From: Flavobacterium subsaxonicum WB 4.1-42 = DSM 21790
Lineage (GTDB): Bacteria; Bacteroidota; Bacteroidia; Flavobacteriales; Flavobacteriaceae
DNA: 64,000 nt
Direction of reading: 5' to 3'
Assembly (NCBI RefSeq): GCF_000422725.1
Contig: NZ_AUGP01000028.1
Span: 1 to 64,000 of the forward strand
Position numbers and translations under genes: made by a program. Numbering within the stretch: position 1 is the stretch's first letter; every line of letters starts with the position of its first letter. Of the stretch, positions 44,334-60,915 are shown in pieces. The notes beneath the pieces were generated by a model. That model saw nothing but the letters and a program-made list of their open reading frames with translations, made no database searches and was not told the origin of the DNA.

Positions 44334-45023
44334 ATGCACATACTTATTATAGAAGACGATAAACGGGTTGCCGAGCTGATACAGCGTGGCCTTGCCGAGC
44401 AGGATTTTACCAGCGATATTGCTTATGATGGCCTGCAGGGCATGAAGCTGGTACTGCAAAATGAGTACGACCTGGTTATTACCGATATTATATTGCCTAA
44501 ACTCGATGGGCTTGATTTGAGCCGTGAAATTCGCGGACTTAAATCCCAGATGCCCATTATTATGCTTACCGCCCTGGGCACTACCGATGATAAAATTGAG
44601 GGTTTTGATGCCGGTGCCGATGATTATATGGTTAAGCCTTTTGAAATGCGCGAACTCCTGGCACGCATGCGTGTGTTGCTAAACCGCTACAAAAGTATTG
44701 CCGGTGCCAGTGCCAACAGTTTTGTTTTAAAACTGGATACGCTGGAAATGAACCTGCACTCTAAAATTGTAAAAAGGGATAATAAGGAGATTAACCTTAC
44801 CCCAAAAGAATTTAAGCTTTTGGAGTACATGATGCAGAATACCGACAGGGTACTATCGCGCAACGAAATTGCCGAAAAAGTTTGGGATACCCACTTTGAT
44901 ACCGGTACCAATTTTATTGATGTGTATATTAATTACCTGCGCAAAAAAGTAGATAAAGATTTTGATAAAAAACTCATTCACACCAAATCGGGTATGGGGT
45001 TTATTTTAAAAATTGAAGAATGA
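44334..45023 (+). CDS. OmpR/PhoB-type response regulator (module 1)
   Basis: 229 residues from ATG at 44334 (MHILIIEDDKRVAELIQ); the upstream 7-codon extension overlaps the probable promoter. Receiver domain: phospho-acceptor Asp51, Thr79 and Lys101 are present. The C-terminal winged helix (about 130-229) contains LTPKEFKLLEYMMQNTDRVLSRNEI and TNFIDVYINYLRKKVD, so it binds DNA. It overlaps its kinase gene by 4 bases. Tandem 11-bp boxes after the kinase (46385-46424) are its most likely target. Confidence 0.95.
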   Translation: MHILIIEDDKRVAELIQRGLAEQDFTSDIAYDGLQGMKLVLQNEYDLVITDIILPKLDGLDLSREIRGLKSQMPIIMLTALGTTDDKIEGFDAGADDYMVKPFEMRELLARMRVLLNRYKSIAGASANSFVLKLDTLEMNLHSKIVKRDNKEINLTPKEFKLLEYMMQNTDRVLSRNEIAEKVWDTHFDTGTNFIDVYINYLRKKVDKDFDKKLIHTKSGMGFILKIEE

Positions 45024-46390
45024 AAATTACCCTTAAGCTTACTATACTGTTTACCATTATAACTGCCGGCATTGTGTTTTTATTTGCCGCCGTTATTTAC
45101 AATTATGCCAAACAGGACCGCGAAGAAGAGTTTTACCAGCGTATAAAAATAAAGGCTTTTGTAAAGGGCGAATTGCTTTTTGATGCCAAGGCCAGTGCAC
45201 AGACCTTGCAGGAAATTCATAAGAACAACCTTAGGGTAATGAATGAGGCCGAAATTGCTATTTACGACCAGGATTTTAACCTGCTTTTTCACGACAACCA
45301 AAAGAGCGACCTGATTAAGGAGACGCCCCAAATGCTGCAGGAAATTTTAGAGAAAGGCGAAATCCAATTTTATAAAGGCAAGTGGCAGGCCGTGGGCGAG
45401 CGGTATACCTTTAGGGGCAAGCATTATCTTATTACGGCCATATCTTACGATCATTACGGGTATAATAAAATAGACAATATGTACAATCACATGGTGTATG
45501 CCTACATTATATCTATTGTGGTAATATGTTTTTCGGGGCTGTTTTTTTCTATCAGGGCGTTTGCACCGGTAAAAGATATTACCCGTAAGGTAAATAAAAT
45601 AACGGCCAGCAAGCTCGATGTGCGGCTAAACGTTAATGGCAGTAAAGACGAACTTTCGGCATTGGCCAATACCTTTAACCAGATGCTCGACAGGCTGGAG
45701 AGTTCTTTCGAAACCCAGAAAAGCTTTGTGTCTAATATTTCGCACGAGCTGCGCACGCCACTTGCTGCAATAATTGCCGAGTTGGAGCTTTCTTTATCCA
45801 AAGACCACACCACGCAGGATTACCGCGATGCTATAAGCAATACACTGGATGATGCCAAGCGTTTGGTGCGCCTGTCTACAAGCCTGTTGGATCTGGCACG
45901 TGCGGGGTATGATAAATCTGAGATATCGTTTAAAAGCATCCGTGCCGATGAGGTGTTGCTGGATGCCCGACAGATAGAGCAGCAGGCTAACCCCAACTAC
46001 CACATTAATATCGATTTTGATATTGATGCCGATGACGACCAGGACATAACCATAATGGGTAACGAATATTTACTCAAGGTAGCCTTTGCCAACCTGTTTA
46101 ATAATGGCTGTAAATATTCGCCTAACAACCAGTGCAGCGTAAAAATTCAATACACTAACAGCGCTATTGTATTGCAATTTAGTAACGAGGGCGAGAACAT
46201 TCCTACCGAAGAACTGGCCACTATATTCAAGCCGTTTTTTAGGGGTTTTAACCAGCAAATGGCTTCCGGTAACGGTATTGGGCTGTCGTTAACCCAAAAA
46301 ATCATACTGTTGCACAACGGTACTATCTCGGTTACATCTACAGGCGGAATAACAACTTTTACAATATCGCTTCCTTTAGAAGTATTCTAA
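45020..46390 (+). CDS. Sensor histidine kinase (module 1)
   Basis: 456 residues: TM1 (8-27), a periplasmic sensor region of about 125 residues with no recognised fold, TM2 (158-178), HAMP, and the kinase core with His242 in SFVSNISHELRTPLAAI. N box NLFNNGCKYS and G2-type box GNGIGLSLTQKI are present, so it is expected to be active. Four-base overlap with the regulator. The stop codon lies inside the first of four 11-bp boxes upstream of the porin. Confidence 0.94.
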   Translation: MKITLKLTILFTIITAGIVFLFAAVIYNYAKQDREEEFYQRIKIKAFVKGELLFDAKASAQTLQEIHKNNLRVMNEAEIAIYDQDFNLLFHDNQKSDLIKETPQMLQEILEKGEIQFYKGKWQAVGERYTFRGKHYLITAISYDHYGYNKIDNMYNHMVYAYIISIVVICFSGLFFSIRAFAPVKDITRKVNKITASKLDVRLNVNGSKDELSALANTFNQMLDRLESSFETQKSFVSNISHELRTPLAAIIAELELSLSKDHTTQDYRDAISNTLDDAKRLVRLSTSLLDLARAGYDKSEISFKSIRADEVLLDARQIEQQANPNYHINIDFDIDADDDQDITIMGNEYLLKVAFANLFNNGCKYSPNNQCSVKIQYTNSAIVLQFSNEGENIPTEELATIFKPFFRGFNQQMASGNGIGLSLTQKIILLHNGTISVTSTGGITTFTISLPLEVF

Positions 46391-46424
46391 TAAAATTCTA
46401 ATTTTTTTCTATTTAATCTCTAAT
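46385..46424 (+). promoter_or_regulatory. Four tandem 7-bp boxes at 11-bp period (candidate OmpR-family operator, porin)
   Basis: TTCTAAT (46385), TTCTAAT (46396), TTCTATT (46407) and CTCTAAT (46418) start at exactly 11-base steps, one helical turn. The first overlaps the kinase stop. A GACCTTTG (-7-like) at 46447-46454 follows. The geometry is that of PhoB/PmrA-type operators. A set with the same half-site and spacing stands before the Usp-like gene (58368-58407). Confidence 0.7.
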
Positions 46425-46461
46425 ACCCTTCAGGGGTATTTAGGGAGACCTTTGTACTGTA

Positions 46462-46480: not shown

Positions 46481-46517
46481 ACGGTCACTGAAAAACAATA
46501 GATAATCATTAGAAAAA

Positions 46518-47843
46518 ATGACACTTAGGAAATTAAGTTTCTTGTTCTTATTAGGTGCTTTGTGCATGTTTAAAGGTAGCGCACAAACTACCGATTTTAA
46601 AAATCCCGCCTTAAAATATTACCTTAACCCCGAGAAGACCCGCTTTATACAATTTAGCGGTTATATGGAGTTCTGGGCACGTTATACCGAGCTTAACCCC
46701 GGCAGTAAAATTAACGACGACAGGCAAAACAGCTCTTACGATTTTTCAATCAGGCGTATCCGTGCAAAAATGACCATGCGCCCTACTGAGAATCTAACGG
46801 TAGTGCTGCAAATGGGTCCGTCCAGCGTTAACGTTAACTCTAAATCCAATACTTATATGGATTTACTTGATGCTTACGCCGAATACAAATTCAACAATTA
46901 CATATCTGTAGGGGGTGGGCGCAGTACCTGGACGGGGCTCTCGCGCTTTTCAACCGGTCCAATGGCTACACTATTGTACGATATGCCTGCTTTTGCTACG
47001 GCCAATGCCGGTTCTACCGATGTTACCGTTCGTAAACTGGGCGTGTATGTAAAAGGCCAGGTAGGCAGGCTGGATTATAGGGTAGCCGTATCCGACCCGT
47101 ATACAGATGCTTCATCGGCACCAAAACTTAACCAGGCTGTTTTTAATACCGATGCTGCCCACCAGCTGGTAAGCGGCTATTTTAAATGGCAGTTTATGGA
47201 TAAGGAAAGTAACGAAACACCATTTTCGGCAGGAACCTATCTTGGTAAAAAAAGCGTGTTTAACATTGGTGTAGGTGCAGAGTTTATGGATGATGCCCTT
47301 TGGCATACCAACAGTGCCGGCCAAAATGTGCACGACAATATGGTTAACCTTGCGGTAGATGCCTTTTATGATGTGCCTATTAACAAAGACCGCGGTACAT
47401 CGTTTAGTGCCTACGCCATTGCAATGCGTAACGACTATGGCCCTAACTACGTAAAAGTAACAGGCACCAGTAACCCTGCAACGGGTGTAGATGCTGCATC
47501 GGGCACATTTAGCGGTGCGGGTAATGCCTATCCGTTAATGGGTACGGGCGATACCTACTATGCCCAGTTGGGTGGCACGCTGCCTTACTTTAACAAAGAT
47601 AAAAACACCATGCAGTTGCTTCCGGCAGCATCGGTACAATACTCAAAATTTGATGCCCTTGCAGATGCTATGGTGGTTTATGATGCCGGTGTAAGCCTGC
47701 TGTTTAACGGCCACTCGTCTAAACTTACGTTTGATGCGCAACGCCGCCCTGTGTTTGGCGGTACAGAGGGTGCCAACCTGGAGCCATCGGTATCGGGACA
47801 CAAAATGATGTACCTATTAAAATACAGAATAGACTTTAACTAA
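46518..47843 (+). CDS. Porin, phosphate-selective O/P-like
   Basis: 441 residues with a signal peptide (SFLFLLGALCMFKGSAQ) and a long stretch of alternating strands. FSGYMEFWARYTELNPGS and the end MMYLLKYRIDFN are typical of a barrel. It resembles the OprO/OprP-like porins in overall look, but substrate selectivity cannot be read. It is the first gene of an operon with a Dabb and a cupin gene and sits directly behind a two-component system and its candidate operator. Confidence 0.8.
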   Translation: MTLRKLSFLFLLGALCMFKGSAQTTDFKNPALKYYLNPEKTRFIQFSGYMEFWARYTELNPGSKINDDRQNSSYDFSIRRIRAKMTMRPTENLTVVLQMGPSSVNVNSKSNTYMDLLDAYAEYKFNNYISVGGGRSTWTGLSRFSTGPMATLLYDMPAFATANAGSTDVTVRKLGVYVKGQVGRLDYRVAVSDPYTDASSAPKLNQAVFNTDAAHQLVSGYFKWQFMDKESNETPFSAGTYLGKKSVFNIGVGAEFMDDALWHTNSAGQNVHDNMVNLAVDAFYDVPINKDRGTSFSAYAIAMRNDYGPNYVKVTGTSNPATGVDAASGTFSGAGNAYPLMGTGDTYYAQLGGTLPYFNKDKNTMQLLPAASVQYSKFDALADAMVVYDAGVSLLFNGHSSKLTFDAQRRPVFGGTEGANLEPSVSGHKMMYLLKYRIDFN

Positions 47844-47853
47844 ATACAACACT

Positions 47854-48258
47854 ATGCAACGACGAAATTTTATTACAGGCACTGCAGCTGCAGCCCTGGC
47901 AAGCGGAATACTTAGCAAAACGGTTATAGACGAGATTGCACCCGCAAAACAATTTTACAACCATTACCTGTTGTTCTGGCTTAAAAAAGACCTTACTGCA
48001 CAGGAGGTGGCCAACTTCCCGCAATTTTTTGAAGAGCTGGGCAAGCTTCCGTACCTAAAATCAATTCATTATGGCGGACCGGCTAATTCATCGCCACGAA
48101 AAGTACTGGATAACAGCTTTAGCTACAATGTGGTAATGACTTTTGATAGCCTCGAAGACCTGGAAACCTACGGCAAGCTGCCAAAACACTTAGAGATAGT
48201 AAAAAAATACAGTGTGTACTGGGATAAAATGCAGGTACACGATTCGGTTCTTAAATAA
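47854..48258 (+). CDS. Tat-exported Dabb (stress-response A/B barrel) family protein
   Basis: 134 residues. The N-terminus RRNFITGTAAAALASG carries a twin-arginine motif, suggesting export in folded form. The core has FYNHYLLFWLKKDLTAQEV and SYNVVMTFDSLEDLETY, matching Dabb ferredoxin-like dimer proteins. Enzymatic role unknown; some relatives work on aromatic or polyketide compounds. Ten bases after the porin stop. Confidence 0.8.
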   Translation: MQRRNFITGTAAAALASGILSKTVIDEIAPAKQFYNHYLLFWLKKDLTAQEVANFPQFFEELGKLPYLKSIHYGGPANSSPRKVLDNSFSYNVVMTFDSLEDLETYGKLPKHLEIVKKYSVYWDKMQVHDSVLK

Positions 48259-48287: not shown

Positions 48288-48782
48288 ATGAAAAAAATGT
48301 TCTTTATGGCTGCACTAACCCTGCTTACCGCAGCTACAAGCATTAATGCTACTACAACAACTATTGGTGGTGGCGATAAAACTAAAAAGGCTAAAGCTAA
48401 AAAAGCCGATGCCGATAAAGAAAGCTACATTAAAGCCATAAGGCTGTACAACCTGCCCGATGGTACCTGTACTTTTGAAGAAGGTAAAATACCCAACAAA
48501 ACCAACATGGATGTTAAAACCTTTTTTGCCCAGACACATGTAGATGATTACGAAAAAGTGGCTCACGCAGCACCACGCATGCAATATGTGGTTACGCTTA
48601 AAGGCAAGCTTAAATTTAAAGTTAGCAACGGCGATACCTTTATTATAGAGCCGGGTGTAGTGCTTGTAGCCGAAGATACTTTAGGCAAAGGCCATAGCTG
48701 GGATTTGGTTAAGGGCGAAAAATGGGAGCGTCTTTACATACCACTTAAAGACGGTGCCGAAGATCATTTTATAAAAAATTAA
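48288..48782 (+). CDS. Exported cupin-domain protein
   Basis: 164 residues: signal peptide (MKKMFFMAALTLLTAATSINA), a Lys/Ala-rich linker (KTKKAKAKKADADK), and a cupin fold near 90-160 (QYVVTLKGKLKFKVSNGDTF, IEPGVVLVAEDTLGKGH). The usual cupin metal histidines of motif 1 are not clear, so metal binding is uncertain. Third gene of the porin operon. Confidence 0.8.
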   Translation: MKKMFFMAALTLLTAATSINATTTTIGGGDKTKKAKAKKADADKESYIKAIRLYNLPDGTCTFEEGKIPNKTNMDVKTFFAQTHVDDYEKVAHAAPRMQYVVTLKGKLKFKVSNGDTFIIEPGVVLVAEDTLGKGHSWDLVKGEKWERLYIPLKDGAEDHFIKN

Positions 48783-55870: not shown

Positions 55871-56299
55871 TCAATCAACATTATATTGTTTTAGAAATGT
55901 AATGTATTCTTCCTTAAATGTTTTTTCTTTATGATGTTCCTTCTGGCTAAGAATATAATTTTTAACCATTTCGATATGTTTTGGGCTTACCGAAAATGCT
56001 CCGTAACCGTCCTGCCAATAAAAATCAGGATGTCCACCTTCTATAGATTTAATCCATTTAGATGATGTTTTCTTTATCTCTTCTATAAATTTTACTAAAG
56101 ATATTTTCTTTGACAGTACAAATAAAATATGAATATGGTCTGGCATTCCACCAATTTGTAGTGCAGGGCTTTCTGAATTTTTACAAATCCCGGTGATGTA
56201 GGCATAGAGTTTAGATTCGATTTCTGGTAAAATCAAATGCTCTCTGTGTTTTGTGCTAAAGACCAAATGGATATAATTGTAAGCGAGCGATTGCGGCAT
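55871..56299 (-). CDS. REP-associated tyrosine transposase (IS200-like Y1)
   Basis: 142 residues, the short Y1_Tnp fold. HUH motif His55-Ile-His57 (GMPDHIHILF) and catalytic Tyr115 (HIEMVKNYILSQ) are both present, and the reading frame is intact. Flanked by inverted REP clusters, the classic RAYT arrangement, so it is probably a domesticated single-copy transposase that mobilises REPs rather than an insertion sequence. No second ORF such as tnpB is visible. Confidence 0.88.
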   Translation of the reverse strand: MPQSLAYNYIHLVFSTKHREHLILPEIESKLYAYITGICKNSESPALQIGGMPDHIHILFVLSKKISLVKFIEEIKKTSSKWIKSIEGGHPDFYWQDGYGAFSVSPKHIEMVKNYILSQKEHHKEKTFKEEYITFLKQYNVD

Positions 56300-58326: not shown

Positions 58327-58367
58327 GGTGTAACATTTAGCGTACACCACAAATTAACCATCTTAAT

Positions 58368-58407
58368 ATTAGAGAATGCTTAAGTTATGGTTAGAATTCC
58401 CTTAGAA
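58368..58407 (-). promoter_or_regulatory. Four tandem 7-bp boxes at 11-bp period (candidate operator, Usp-like operon)
   Basis: Read on the minus strand: TTCTAAG (58407-58401), TTCTAAC (58396-58390), ACTTAAG (58385-58379), CTCTAAT (58374-58368), each at exactly an 11-base step. TTTG (58343-58340) of a poor -7 box lies 24 bases beyond, almost as in the porin promoter (26 bases). It lies between the kinase stop and the Usp start. Confidence 0.7.
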
Positions 58408-58466
58408 TTTACATTAGTGTTTTTAATGTGAGGATTTGAGGAAGGAGGTCGGACCTCCCAATCTCC

Positions 58467-59843
58467 TTACGCTTTCTGATGCTTCTTAAAAACAATACCT
58501 ACTACGGTGCCTTTTCCGGGCTCCGACTGTATAACCAGTTCGCCATTGTGCATACGGATAATTTTCATGGCAAGGGGTAGCCCCAGGCCGTAACCGGTAT
58601 ATCGGGTAGCTTCTTTTCCACGGAAAAACGGCTCGTACAGGTACGGAATATCTTCGGGCGGTATGCCAATGCCAATATCGGTAATAACAATTTTAATGGT
58701 TTCCTGGCTGGCCGATAAGGTTACAAAAACCTCTTCGTTATCGCTATATTTTACGCCATTGCTAATAATGTTGCCAATAGCCAGTTCCAGCAACGGGCGG
58801 TTGCAGGGCAGGGTTAGCAGGTCGGCATCTTCAGGAATGTGGCTAAGGTTAATGGTAATACGGTTGTTGGGATAGAGTTTATCCAGATCGCATTTTAAAT
58901 CCATTAAAAGCTCGTCTATACGGGCAACATCCAAAACCTGTTTTTTACCATCGTAACCGGTCTGGGTTAATTTTAGCAGGCTTTCGGTAAGGTTGGCAAG
59001 GCGTGTGGCCTGTTGCTGTATGTTGCCAAGCACTTGTTCATATTCATCAGTATTACGCTCTTTAAGTAGGGCAATTTCTGCCTCGGCAATAATGGTAGTA
59101 ATGGGTGTTTTAAGCTCGTGCGATGCGTTATTAATAAAATTAGCCTGAATTTCAAAGCTTGTTTCCAGCCTGTCGAGCATGTTGTTAAACGTTTTGGCCA
59201 ACTTGTAAATCTCGTCGCTCTCATCGGCATCGGGCATGGGTAGTCGGTTATGCAGGTTGGATGCGCTAATATGATTAACCTCTTTAGTAATACGCGCTAC
59301 GGGGTTAATAACCCTGCGTGCCAAAAAGCGGCCAAAAAAGTAGGCGAGCAACAAAAAGGCTATCCCACCAAAAAGCATAATGCGGGTAATATACAAAGTA
59401 GTGGTATTGCCGCGGCGGTCTTTAGCCGATACAATAACCAGGTATTTTATGCCATTTTCATTAAACAGTTGGGCATAATAATAGGTGTACCCGTCGGCAA
59501 ACCAGTCGCTGCCCTTAGATAGTGCGTTGGCATAAAACTCCGGTGGAAGCTTAAGTGCCGTGTTGTACTCAAAAGAATTAGGTCCGTTGACTTTAAGCAC
59601 ATACTCGTGCTCATCGATAAGTTCGGGCAGGCCATTGCGTTTAAGCGCGCGATAGTAATTGGCTTTTTCAGGGTCTATTTGGTAATGAATAGACGCCACA
59701 ATTTTAGCCCTGTCTACCAGGCGTTTTACAAAATAATACTCGTTATTACGCTTAAATAAAACAAAAACCACCACACACAGCAATAGTGTACTAATACCCG
59801 AAAGGGTAATATAAGTAAGGGTAATTTTCTTTTTTATTTGCAT
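58467..59843 (-). CDS. Sensor histidine kinase (module 2)
   Basis: 458 residues with the same layout as module 1: TM1 (~10-30), periplasmic region of about 120 residues, TM2 (~153-175), HAMP, His242 in FINNASHELKTPITTI. N box NIISNGVKYS and G boxes ITDIGIGIPPEDI and GYGLGLPLAMKI are intact. Two bases separate it from the regulator. The signal is unknown. Confidence 0.94.
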   Translation of the reverse strand: MQIKKKITLTYITLSGISTLLLCVVVFVLFKRNNEYYFVKRLVDRAKIVASIHYQIDPEKANYYRALKRNGLPELIDEHEYVLKVNGPNSFEYNTALKLPPEFYANALSKGSDWFADGYTYYYAQLFNENGIKYLVIVSAKDRRGNTTTLYITRIMLFGGIAFLLLAYFFGRFLARRVINPVARITKEVNHISASNLHNRLPMPDADESDEIYKLAKTFNNMLDRLETSFEIQANFINNASHELKTPITTIIAEAEIALLKERNTDEYEQVLGNIQQQATRLANLTESLLKLTQTGYDGKKQVLDVARIDELLMDLKCDLDKLYPNNRITINLSHIPEDADLLTLPCNRPLLELAIGNIISNGVKYSDNEEVFVTLSASQETIKIVITDIGIGIPPEDIPYLYEPFFRGKEATRYTGYGLGLPLAMKIIRMHNGELVIQSEPGKGTVVGIVFKKHQKA

Positions 59844-59845
59844 GC

Positions 59846-60520
59846 TTACGGTTTTAGCACATAGCCCAAACCTTTAATGGTATGGATAAGCTTGTTAGGG
59901 TAGGGCTTGTCTATTTTGTTGCGCAGGTAATTAATGTACACATCTACCACATTGGTATTCATATCGAAATTAATGTTCCAAACGTTATCCAGTATCTTTT
60001 CCCGCGATAGTATGGTCTTGGTGTTCTTGGCCAGGTAATACAGCAGGTTAAATTCTTTAGCGGTAAGAATAATAGCATCCTGGCCACGCTTAACGGTTTT
60101 AGAGCGCTGGTTTATTTCCAGGTCTTCTACAGTAATAATTTCCGGCTGTTTGTGTTCCTGTCCCGCACGGCGTGCAAGGGCATTAATGCGCGCCTCCAGT
60201 TCGGCAAACCTAAAAGGCTTGGCCATATAATCGTCGGCACCGGTATTAAGGCCGTTAACAATGTTTTCGCTGCTGGTAAGAGCGGTAAGCATTAAAATAG
60301 GCACAAAATTTCCGGCAGCCCTAAGCCTTCGGCAAATTTCTATACCGTTAATGTCTGGCAGCATCACATCCAGCACAACAACATCAAAAGCGTTGTTGGC
60401 AAGCATCTCTAATGCTGTTGTGCCATCAAGCGCGGCACTAACATCGTGGTTTTTTTCAGATAACCCCTTCCGGATAACCGAAAGAAGGTTAGGTTCGTCT
60501 TCAACAATAAGAAGCTTCAT
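59846..60520 (-). CDS. OmpR/PhoB-type response regulator (module 2)
   Basis: 224 residues. Receiver Asp51, Thr79 and Lys101 present; winged-helix LTAKEFNLLYYLAKNTKTILSREKI and TNVVDVYINYLRNKID. It aligns well by eye with the module 1 regulator, including the recognition region, consistent with the similar candidate boxes. First gene of the minus-strand pair. It is expected to bind at 58368-58407. Confidence 0.95.
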   Translation of the reverse strand: MKLLIVEDEPNLLSVIRKGLSEKNHDVSAALDGTTALEMLANNAFDVVVLDVMLPDINGIEICRRLRAAGNFVPILMLTALTSSENIVNGLNTGADDYMAKPFRFAELEARINALARRAGQEHKQPEIITVEDLEINQRSKTVKRGQDAIILTAKEFNLLYYLAKNTKTILSREKILDNVWNINFDMNTNVVDVYINYLRNKIDKPYPNKLIHTIKGLGYVLKP

Positions 60521-60628
60521 GGGCAGAATTAAGGTAATCTCAACAAAAATAATAATTTAGTCGCAAAGATTGGGCTAAATAATTAAATGAGTAAATTTAT
60601 TGTATTTGTGGTGATATCTCTAATGCCC

Positions 60629-60915
60629 GTAGGGCGTTGCCCCACGCTAATTTGTTTAACCCTTTCAGGGTTGAGTGCAGATCTATTATCTTATGTCTAT
60701 TATCTAAAAATCTTATAAACATATTCCGCAGGGCGTTGCCACATGCTAATTTATGCAACCCTTTCAGGGTTGGGCGGAAAGGCTATTATCTTACGTATCT
60801 CATCTAAAAATCTTATAATATATTCCGTAGGGCGTTGCCCCACGCTAATTTGTGCAACCCTTTCAGGGTTGGGCCCAGGTCTATTATCTTATGTCTACCA
60901 TCTAAAAATCTTTTT
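60629..60915. repeat. Three tandem REP-type units, 99-bp period
   Basis: GTAGGGCGTTGCC (or GCAGGGCGTTGCC) starts at 60629, 60728 and 60827, exactly 99 bases apart. Each unit carries GCTAATTT, the AACCCTTTCAGGGTT palindrome, CTATTATCTTA and ATCTAAAAATCTT. The words match the repeats flanking the RAYT gene 4.5 kb upstream. This fills most of the 447-bp gap 60521-60967; no ORF is seen. Confidence 0.78.

Follow-up and report, generated by a model that had tools for sequence, protein, structure and literature searches.

A four-unit direct-repeat array ahead of a porin operon of Flavobacterium subsaxonicum as the probable operator of its neighbouring OmpR/PhoB-type regulator

Four direct repeats in exact 11-bp steps separate a two-component system from a porin operon in Flavobacterium subsaxonicum WB 4.1-42. 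We propose, at a probability of roughly 0.87, that this array is a four-half-site operator from which the adjacent OmpR/PhoB-type response regulator, when phosphorylated, would activate the porin operon. The window, i.e., the whole stretch of DNA analysed, comprises 64,000 nucleotides of contig NZ_AUGP01000028.1, and its features are collected in Table 1. The array is conserved in orthologous loci and stands at a fixed distance from a -7 promoter box. We infer binding by the regulator, the arrangement of its dimers, the need for phosphate, and activation over repression. The kinase would phosphorylate the regulator, two head-to-tail dimers of which would occupy four successive turns of the DNA, just ahead of a Bacteroidota promoter with a -7 box and no other conserved upstream element. 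The bound regulator would then aid RNA polymerase, and the operon of porin, Dabb, and cupin-like genes would be turned on.

Both PF00072 and PF00486 score above cut-off in the regulator, the domain pair of the OmpR/PhoB family. The best NCBIfam models are of the heavy-metal type for regulator and kinase, TIGR01387 (234.9 bits) and the sensor model TIGR01386 (217.5 bits), respectively, each below its cut-off (279.2 and 292.55). Residues D51, T79, and K101, which we take to have a role in phosphorylation, are invariant across the regulator of the window and eight orthologs. The porin reaches 45.8 bits against the ExtI-type selenite/tellurite porin model NF040900, short of the cut-off of 150, and has no Pfam family match; the cupin-like protein has neither a Pfam nor an NCBIfam match. 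The Dabb and cupin-like genes stay next to the porin in those orthologous loci that reach far enough. The 170 nt ahead of the regulator gene contain no array (12/24 array positions) and hence no sign of autoregulation. In two other loci (L048 and L049), array-like sites (17/24) begin 106 and 95 nt ahead of the regulator gene, hinting that some sister systems may be autoregulated. Upstream sites at L053 (17) and at L058 and L060 (18) were taken as A/T background.

The preliminary description had placed the four 7-mers at 46385, 46396, 46407, and 46418, overlapping the kinase stop codon and preceding the porin, and the sequence agrees on every point. The kinase reading frame ends at 46390 with its stop codon at 46388-46390, inside unit 1 (46385-46391), and the ATG codons of porin and regulator are at 46518 and 44334. 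That all units lie on one face of the DNA is a good approximation only: about 10.5 bp make one turn, so that a step of 11 bp lets the units drift by about 17 degrees each. Among the 7-mers of the window at periods 9-13, low-complexity units excluded, the array is the only quadruple within 2 mismatches of the column consensus, and no comparable quadruple occurred at period 11, the sole period tried, in 20 order-2 Markov counterparts of the window. Across the 4,636,893 bases of the genome, no other site matches within 3 mismatches, and the backwards-read control has 0. Tandem Repeats Finder did not report the array, leaving a simple tandem-repeat reading without support. A generic repeat tool returned no direct-repeat family on the 211-base region, a limit of its settings, and the array was scored directly instead. 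The unit also occurs inverted, as ATTAGAA, at 46508-46514, immediately ahead of the porin start codon. Of 9 matches to a looser three-unit pattern in this genome, 3 are registers of the array; the control has 3, so that weaker members of a regulon cannot be told from noise there. Two identical three-unit matches, TTCTTAAAGTTTTCTAAAAAATTTCTAA, with one mismatch each, lie about 2 kb apart in the same genome outside the window (L121 and L122; G000:C2:168410-168437 and 170437-170464).

Table 1. Features of the window that bear on the array, in order of position.
Feature	Coordinates	Strand	Basis or remark
Response regulator (receiver and winged-helix Trans_reg_C), putative binder of the array	44334..45023	+	profile searches
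Sensor histidine kinase (HAMP, HisKA, HATPase_c)	45020..46390	+	profile searches
Half-site 1, TTCTAAT	46385..46391	+	starts at predicted -74; shares bases with kinase stop codon
Half-site 2, TTCTAAT	46396..46402	+	starts at predicted -63
Half-site 3, TTCTATT	46407..46413	+	starts at predicted -52
Half-site 4, CTCTAAT	46418..46424	+	starts at predicted -41
Predicted -7 box, GACCTTTG	46447..46454	+	consensus TAnnTTTG, one mismatch in the window
Outer-membrane porin-like protein, gene 1 of the target operon	46518..47843	+	weak ExtI-type match
Dabb (A/B-barrel) protein of the porin operon	47854..48258	+	Tat-like leader by reading
Cupin-like small protein	48288..48782	+	named by reading
Sister array TTCTAA, TTCTAA, ACTTAA, CTCTAA	58369..58407	-	units start at 58407, 58396, 58385, and 58374
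Paralogous kinase	58467..59843	-	named by position and reading
Paralogous response regulator, 42% identical	59846..60520	-	sequence comparison

The predicted -7 box of the window lies 23 nt beyond the last hexamer. The distance used below is counted from the first base of half-site 4 to the TTTG of the box and is 33 nt here. According to a study on F. psychrophilum, the box spans -12 to -5 (PMC9723704); the placement of the box puts the predicted transcription start of the porin operon at 46459. Thirteen promoters of the window regulator clade were aligned, omitting four near-duplicates and an ortholog whose distance is 32 rather than 33 (L217). The six fixed columns of TAnnTTTG average 1.90 bits, as befits a Bacteroidota primary-sigma promoter. 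Mean information is 1.84 bits in the array units, 0.87 bits in the spacers, partly due to A/T bias, and 0.30 bits in the gap between array and -7 box, where these 13 promoters have no further conserved promoter element. The same anatomy bears on the direction of control. OmpR-family proteins can repress, as the description of PhoB as a dual regulator illustrates (PMC10294691), so the adjacent regulator might use the array as an operator for repression. We consider this unlikely: the array stops 23 nt short of the -7 box and clear of the predicted transcription start; a gap devoid of conserved promoter elements fits a promoter in need of help; and the architecture is like that of activating Salmonella PhoP promoters (PMC3335776).

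Conservation in relatives had been named in advance as the support to look for. All six same-genus regulator orthologs at 63-74% identity have a four-unit array after the kinase gene; the contig of a further ortholog at 60% identity (L047) ends short of the array site. Fifty-four same-family loci (53 of the same genus) were scanned over a stretch reaching 60 nt into the region before the kinase end and 200 nt beyond it, the kinase end being assumed for L071 and L084. At period 11, 16 regions after kinase genes score at least 20/24, compared with none at control periods 7-10, 12-14, and 16 and one at period 15; L041-L043 count as misses because their arrays lie beyond the 200 nt scanned. Across 61 same-genus genomes, the four-unit pattern gave 20 rows, or 16 distinct arrays, with 2 rows in the control. 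Fifteen of the 16 lie inside loci of such regulators. The sixteenth, in a genome with no regulator at E 1e-55 (G170), looks like low-complexity background, since the examined stretch lacks a TTG at the expected distance. The window genome has eight other full-length OmpR-type regulators; the five examined (L096-L100, with an assumed kinase end for four) score 11-15.

The distribution of the array reaches through the phylum. Among 80 loci of named genomes, scores of at least 19/24 were found in 12/20 Bacteroidota loci and in 0/60 others. The genera concerned include Chryseobacterium, Pedobacter, Mongoliibacter, Dyadobacter, Psychroserpens, Hymenobacter, and Neolewinella. For one named-genome match (L153), a control period gives the higher score, 20, and period 11 gives 19. 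A composite pattern built from members of the window regulator clade (array, 33 nt, and TAnnTTTG, with at most 3 mismatches) occurs 21 times in 17/395 genomes of the phylum sample and 28 times in 26/249 genomes of the larger genus sample, with 0 in either control. Genome samples thus numbered 61 or 249 for the genus and 395 for the phylum, G000 and G306 being in both larger ones.

Absence of the array from orthologous loci had been named as the observation that would speak against an operator. Thirty loci among the porin matches, the window's own included, were compared, and all seven porin orthologs (55-78% identity) have the array, at 23 or 24 of 24 positions. Two are collinear like the window; in the other five, regulator and kinase are divergent with the array between, so that the array is no leftover of the kinase 3' end. 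The 22 remote porin homologs (28-40% identity) have no array, with no score above 16, and none has a regulator of the window type in the examined stretch. Since orthologs have the array and remote homologs do not, it is tied to the pairing of regulator and porin rather than to the kinase gene or to porins as such.

The array-to-promoter distance matches the clade of the neighbouring regulator. It is 33 in 16/16 window-clade rows with a readable promoter, and in a tree of 83 regulators the distance-33 rows fall in one clade of 17 rows with support 99/99. The seventeenth is L047, whose contig ends too early, and L212-L216 were set to 33 by hand from the sequence, as the promoter alignment bore out. 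Other regulator clades have distances of 21, 43, or 23. Mapped on the tree as four classes, in which 32 was counted as 21 and 34 as 23 (each pair differing by one unit), the geometry needs 3 changes over 56 rows, the minimum, while 200 shuffles need 19-26. These 56 rows exclude 17/83 with no above-threshold array in the scanned stretch (among them 5 unrelated control regulators and 1 contig end), 8/83 whose best match has no recognisable -7 box, and 2/83 with odd distances. Measured by phase, 52/54 distances occupy 3 of 11 possible phases, the 54 not being independent observations because the rows are related. The results strengthen the proposal of the preliminary description that the array is the target of the regulator encoded at 44334, since the promoter distance follows that regulator's clade.

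They also bear on whether the array might chiefly serve another transcription factor or a paralogous regulator, which we judge a little less probable still than repression. Cross-binding is conceivable, as the paralog in the window, 42% identical, has a sister array of similar units. Some arrays, moreover, have no regulator in the examined stretch: a regulator or kinase is present there for 45/52 array rows, and five genomes account for the remaining 7. Together with G636, these genomes encode a regulator at 77, 73, 65, 63, 54, and 48% identity, the last being weak; the tree includes none of these six, and in G383 and G636 the regulator lies some 5-11 kb from the array. Against another binder, however, speak the spacing, which tracks the adjacent regulator's clade in the fewest possible changes, the examined remote porins, which have neither array nor window-type regulator in the locus, and the regulators at 54-77% identity in 5/6 of the genomes whose arrays stand apart.

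Recognition by a protein would be superfluous if the array were a phased A/T-rich bend or an UP-like element. Its units and many spacers are indeed A/T-rich and its period is near a helical turn. Such an element is very improbable, however, because position 3 is C in 52/52 units of the 13 aligned promoters and YTCTAA occurs in 46/52, while the spacers vary and may be GC-rich (e.g., TACCC, CGGCC, and TGGTC). Least credible of all is a slippage-made 11-bp tandem repeat, or a terminator or RNA element of the kinase 3' end: the array does start within the kinase stop codon, but it has no terminator-like site and no Rfam match, is kept between families despite diverged spacers, and persists in divergent loci, with the kinase gene on the opposite side.

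The paralogous two-component system offers a comparison within the window. Its array also steps by 11 bases after its kinase gene, and TTTG at 58353-58350 gives a distance of 21. This sister clade (58350-58467, minus strand, in the window) precedes what reads as a universal-stress-like protein in relatives, again at distance 21, and what reads as a bestrophin-like protein or SulP-type transporter often comes next. A further clade (L077, L083, L089, and L095) has arrays 4-38 nt after the kinase gene with units nearer TTTTAAG/TCTTAAAG, similar to the PmrA motif, at distance 23 or 34; these precede genes that read as TolC-type, with RND adaptors in the locus. Arrays scoring 18-21/24 at L072, L075, L076, L081, and L088 precede large genes that by reading encode outer-membrane proteins. 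No -7 box can be recognised at any of the usual distances from them, and these loci may have a different type of promoter. Elsewhere in the window, a 99-bp unit is repeated in tandem in 2.9 copies at 60627-60912, with internal GGGCGTTGCCCC and AACCCTTTCAGGGTT words, and a 142-aa reading frame at 55871-56299 (minus strand) reads like a REP-associated or IS200-type transposase.

The genes that follow the array in relatives suggest a wider function. Within 4.5 kb downstream of the 52 array rows, a magnesium-transport gene (MgtC, MgtA-like P-type ATPase, or MgtE) was found in 25, RND efflux genes in 27, the porin in 12, and no tested gene in 1. Pfam searches on representatives confirmed the MgtC, MgtE, cation ATPase, HlyD/CusB, and AcrB families, the label MgtA-like being our reading of the ATPase. 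The 52 rows omit L290, which has 4 mismatches, and count one array of L046 in two registers, so that 51 are distinct. Within 2 kb, a limit applied on both sides because control loci extend less far downstream, magnesium genes follow 22/51 distinct arrays and 0/53 control arrays of other clades, the latter being each locus's best match within 7 mismatches and some of them chance matches. No magnesium gene was found anywhere in the 58 control loci. RND-adaptor genes follow 16/58 of them, so that the link to RND efflux is not special to the window clade. The 12 porin-type rows, the window included, have no magnesium gene nearby, and the MgtC gene of the window genome itself is without an array (best 15/24, on the coding strand); the magnesium link accordingly belongs to the relatives only. 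Since arrays there precede MgtC, MgtA-like, MgtE, or RND-efflux operons, the array travels with the regulator and not with porins. From the gene neighbourhoods, the array in relatives would appear to mark a PhoP-like regulon, and our best guess for the signal, given these magnesium-transport and RND-efflux genes, is a cation, perhaps low Mg2+.

The regulators themselves point to an exchange of targets. That of the window is 72-78% identical to regulators of MgtC/RND operons (L292, L293, L296, L316, and L319) and 54-56% identical to those divergent from the same porin elsewhere (L294, L297, L300, and L301), while in G331 both regulator (76%) and porin (78%) resemble those of the window. Based on these identities, the window and G331 pair a magnesium/RND-type regulator with a porin operon. 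Four genomes (G706, G322, G596, and G291) have a porin-type and an MgtC/RND-type array each, with its own regulator beside each. We infer that the array is the portable joint in a swap of targets, the place of the window inside the clade being unsettled on the tree. Pairs of arrays a few kb apart occur at L303 (G770; 5001 and 7463) and L307 (G383; 5070 and 9036). At L307, MgtC and an MgtA-like gene follow one array and an RND operon follows the other; the arrangement looks like a divided operon of which both parts retained a copy of the array.

Taking these observations together, we put forward tentatively, as an idea somewhat more apt to fail than to hold, that a small regulon with the job of PhoP/PhoQ extends across the Bacteroidota. 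One regulator clade would read four TTCTAA half-sites 33 nt before TTTG and activate magnesium transport and RND efflux. The lineage of the window would have been rewired to the porin operon by way of the array, and sister clades, shifted by about whole turns (21, 33, and 43 nt), would retain the half-site code but serve other targets. If this PhoP-like reading is true, promoter geometry changes along with the regulator clade, and target genes are exchanged meanwhile. The spread of the array, its clade-specific spacing, and the magnesium link of the relatives lift its interest beyond that of one promoter feature.

To our knowledge, the operators of Bacteroidota two-component regulators have been little described, and Bacteroidota promoters differ from those of E. 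coli. The array is not described in the literature on Bacteroidetes and Flavobacterium regulators available to us, mostly titles and abstracts with thin coverage of subscription journals, and TTCTAAT in the published passages at hand is a primer and a CRISPR repeat. The array has the marks of an OmpR/PhoB tandem operator, namely direct repeats of 10-11 bp before a predicted promoter, conservation in orthologs, and fixed spacing, and is probably a well-defined new operator. It is legible from sequence, crosses families, and separates clades by its spacing, so that target prediction for uncharacterised regulators would be possible.

The pho box of E. coli PhoB has a repeat length of 11 bp, and the PhoP boxes of Bacillus subtilis consist of several direct repeats with a period of about 11 bp. 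The former differs from the array in unit sequence and regulon, and the latter in unit sequence, host phylum, and regulon. The pho box shares with the array direct repeats at a strict spacing from core promoter elements, and its repeats are bound by a phosphorylated PhoB dimer (PMC10294691). The AgrR regulator of Cupriavidus belongs, by our grouping, to broadly the same TIGR01387-like group; it takes a type II activator position at most promoters and has an extra in-phase direct half-site at some operators, although its core site is an inverted repeat (6-4-6), unlike the purely direct array, which has no inverted core (PMC7380067).

A geometry of the PhoB and PmrA type had been suggested in the preliminary description. 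The reading as a tandem direct-repeat operator stands, and the closest described geometry known to us is the PhoP box of Salmonella. This box is a hexamer-N5-hexamer, that is, hexanucleotide direct repeats with five-nucleotide spacers and an 11-bp period as in the array, and direct boxes precede the -10 element by 11-12 or 21-23 nt, the 11-12 nt promoters being predicted as Class II (PMC3335776). The gaps to the -7 box in our alignments are 23 nt in the window clade and 11 nt in the sister clade. Salmonella PhoP targets mgtA and mgtC, and MgtC, MgtA-like, and MgtE genes follow the array in relatives. The two systems differ in that the unit TTCTAA does not fit the PhoP consensus (T/G)GTTTA and occurs four times rather than twice, and in that Salmonella mgtC uses a reversed box, whereas the array is direct and stands on a Bacteroidota promoter. 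Unlike Salmonella PhoP, moreover, the regulator studied here scores best with heavy-metal models, and the putative targets include RND efflux and a porin. The array makes a Bacteroidota equivalent of the PhoP/PhoQ magnesium regulon a testable idea, and a spacing like that of Salmonella PhoP on another type of promoter would suggest that contact between regulator and RNA polymerase sets the spacing.
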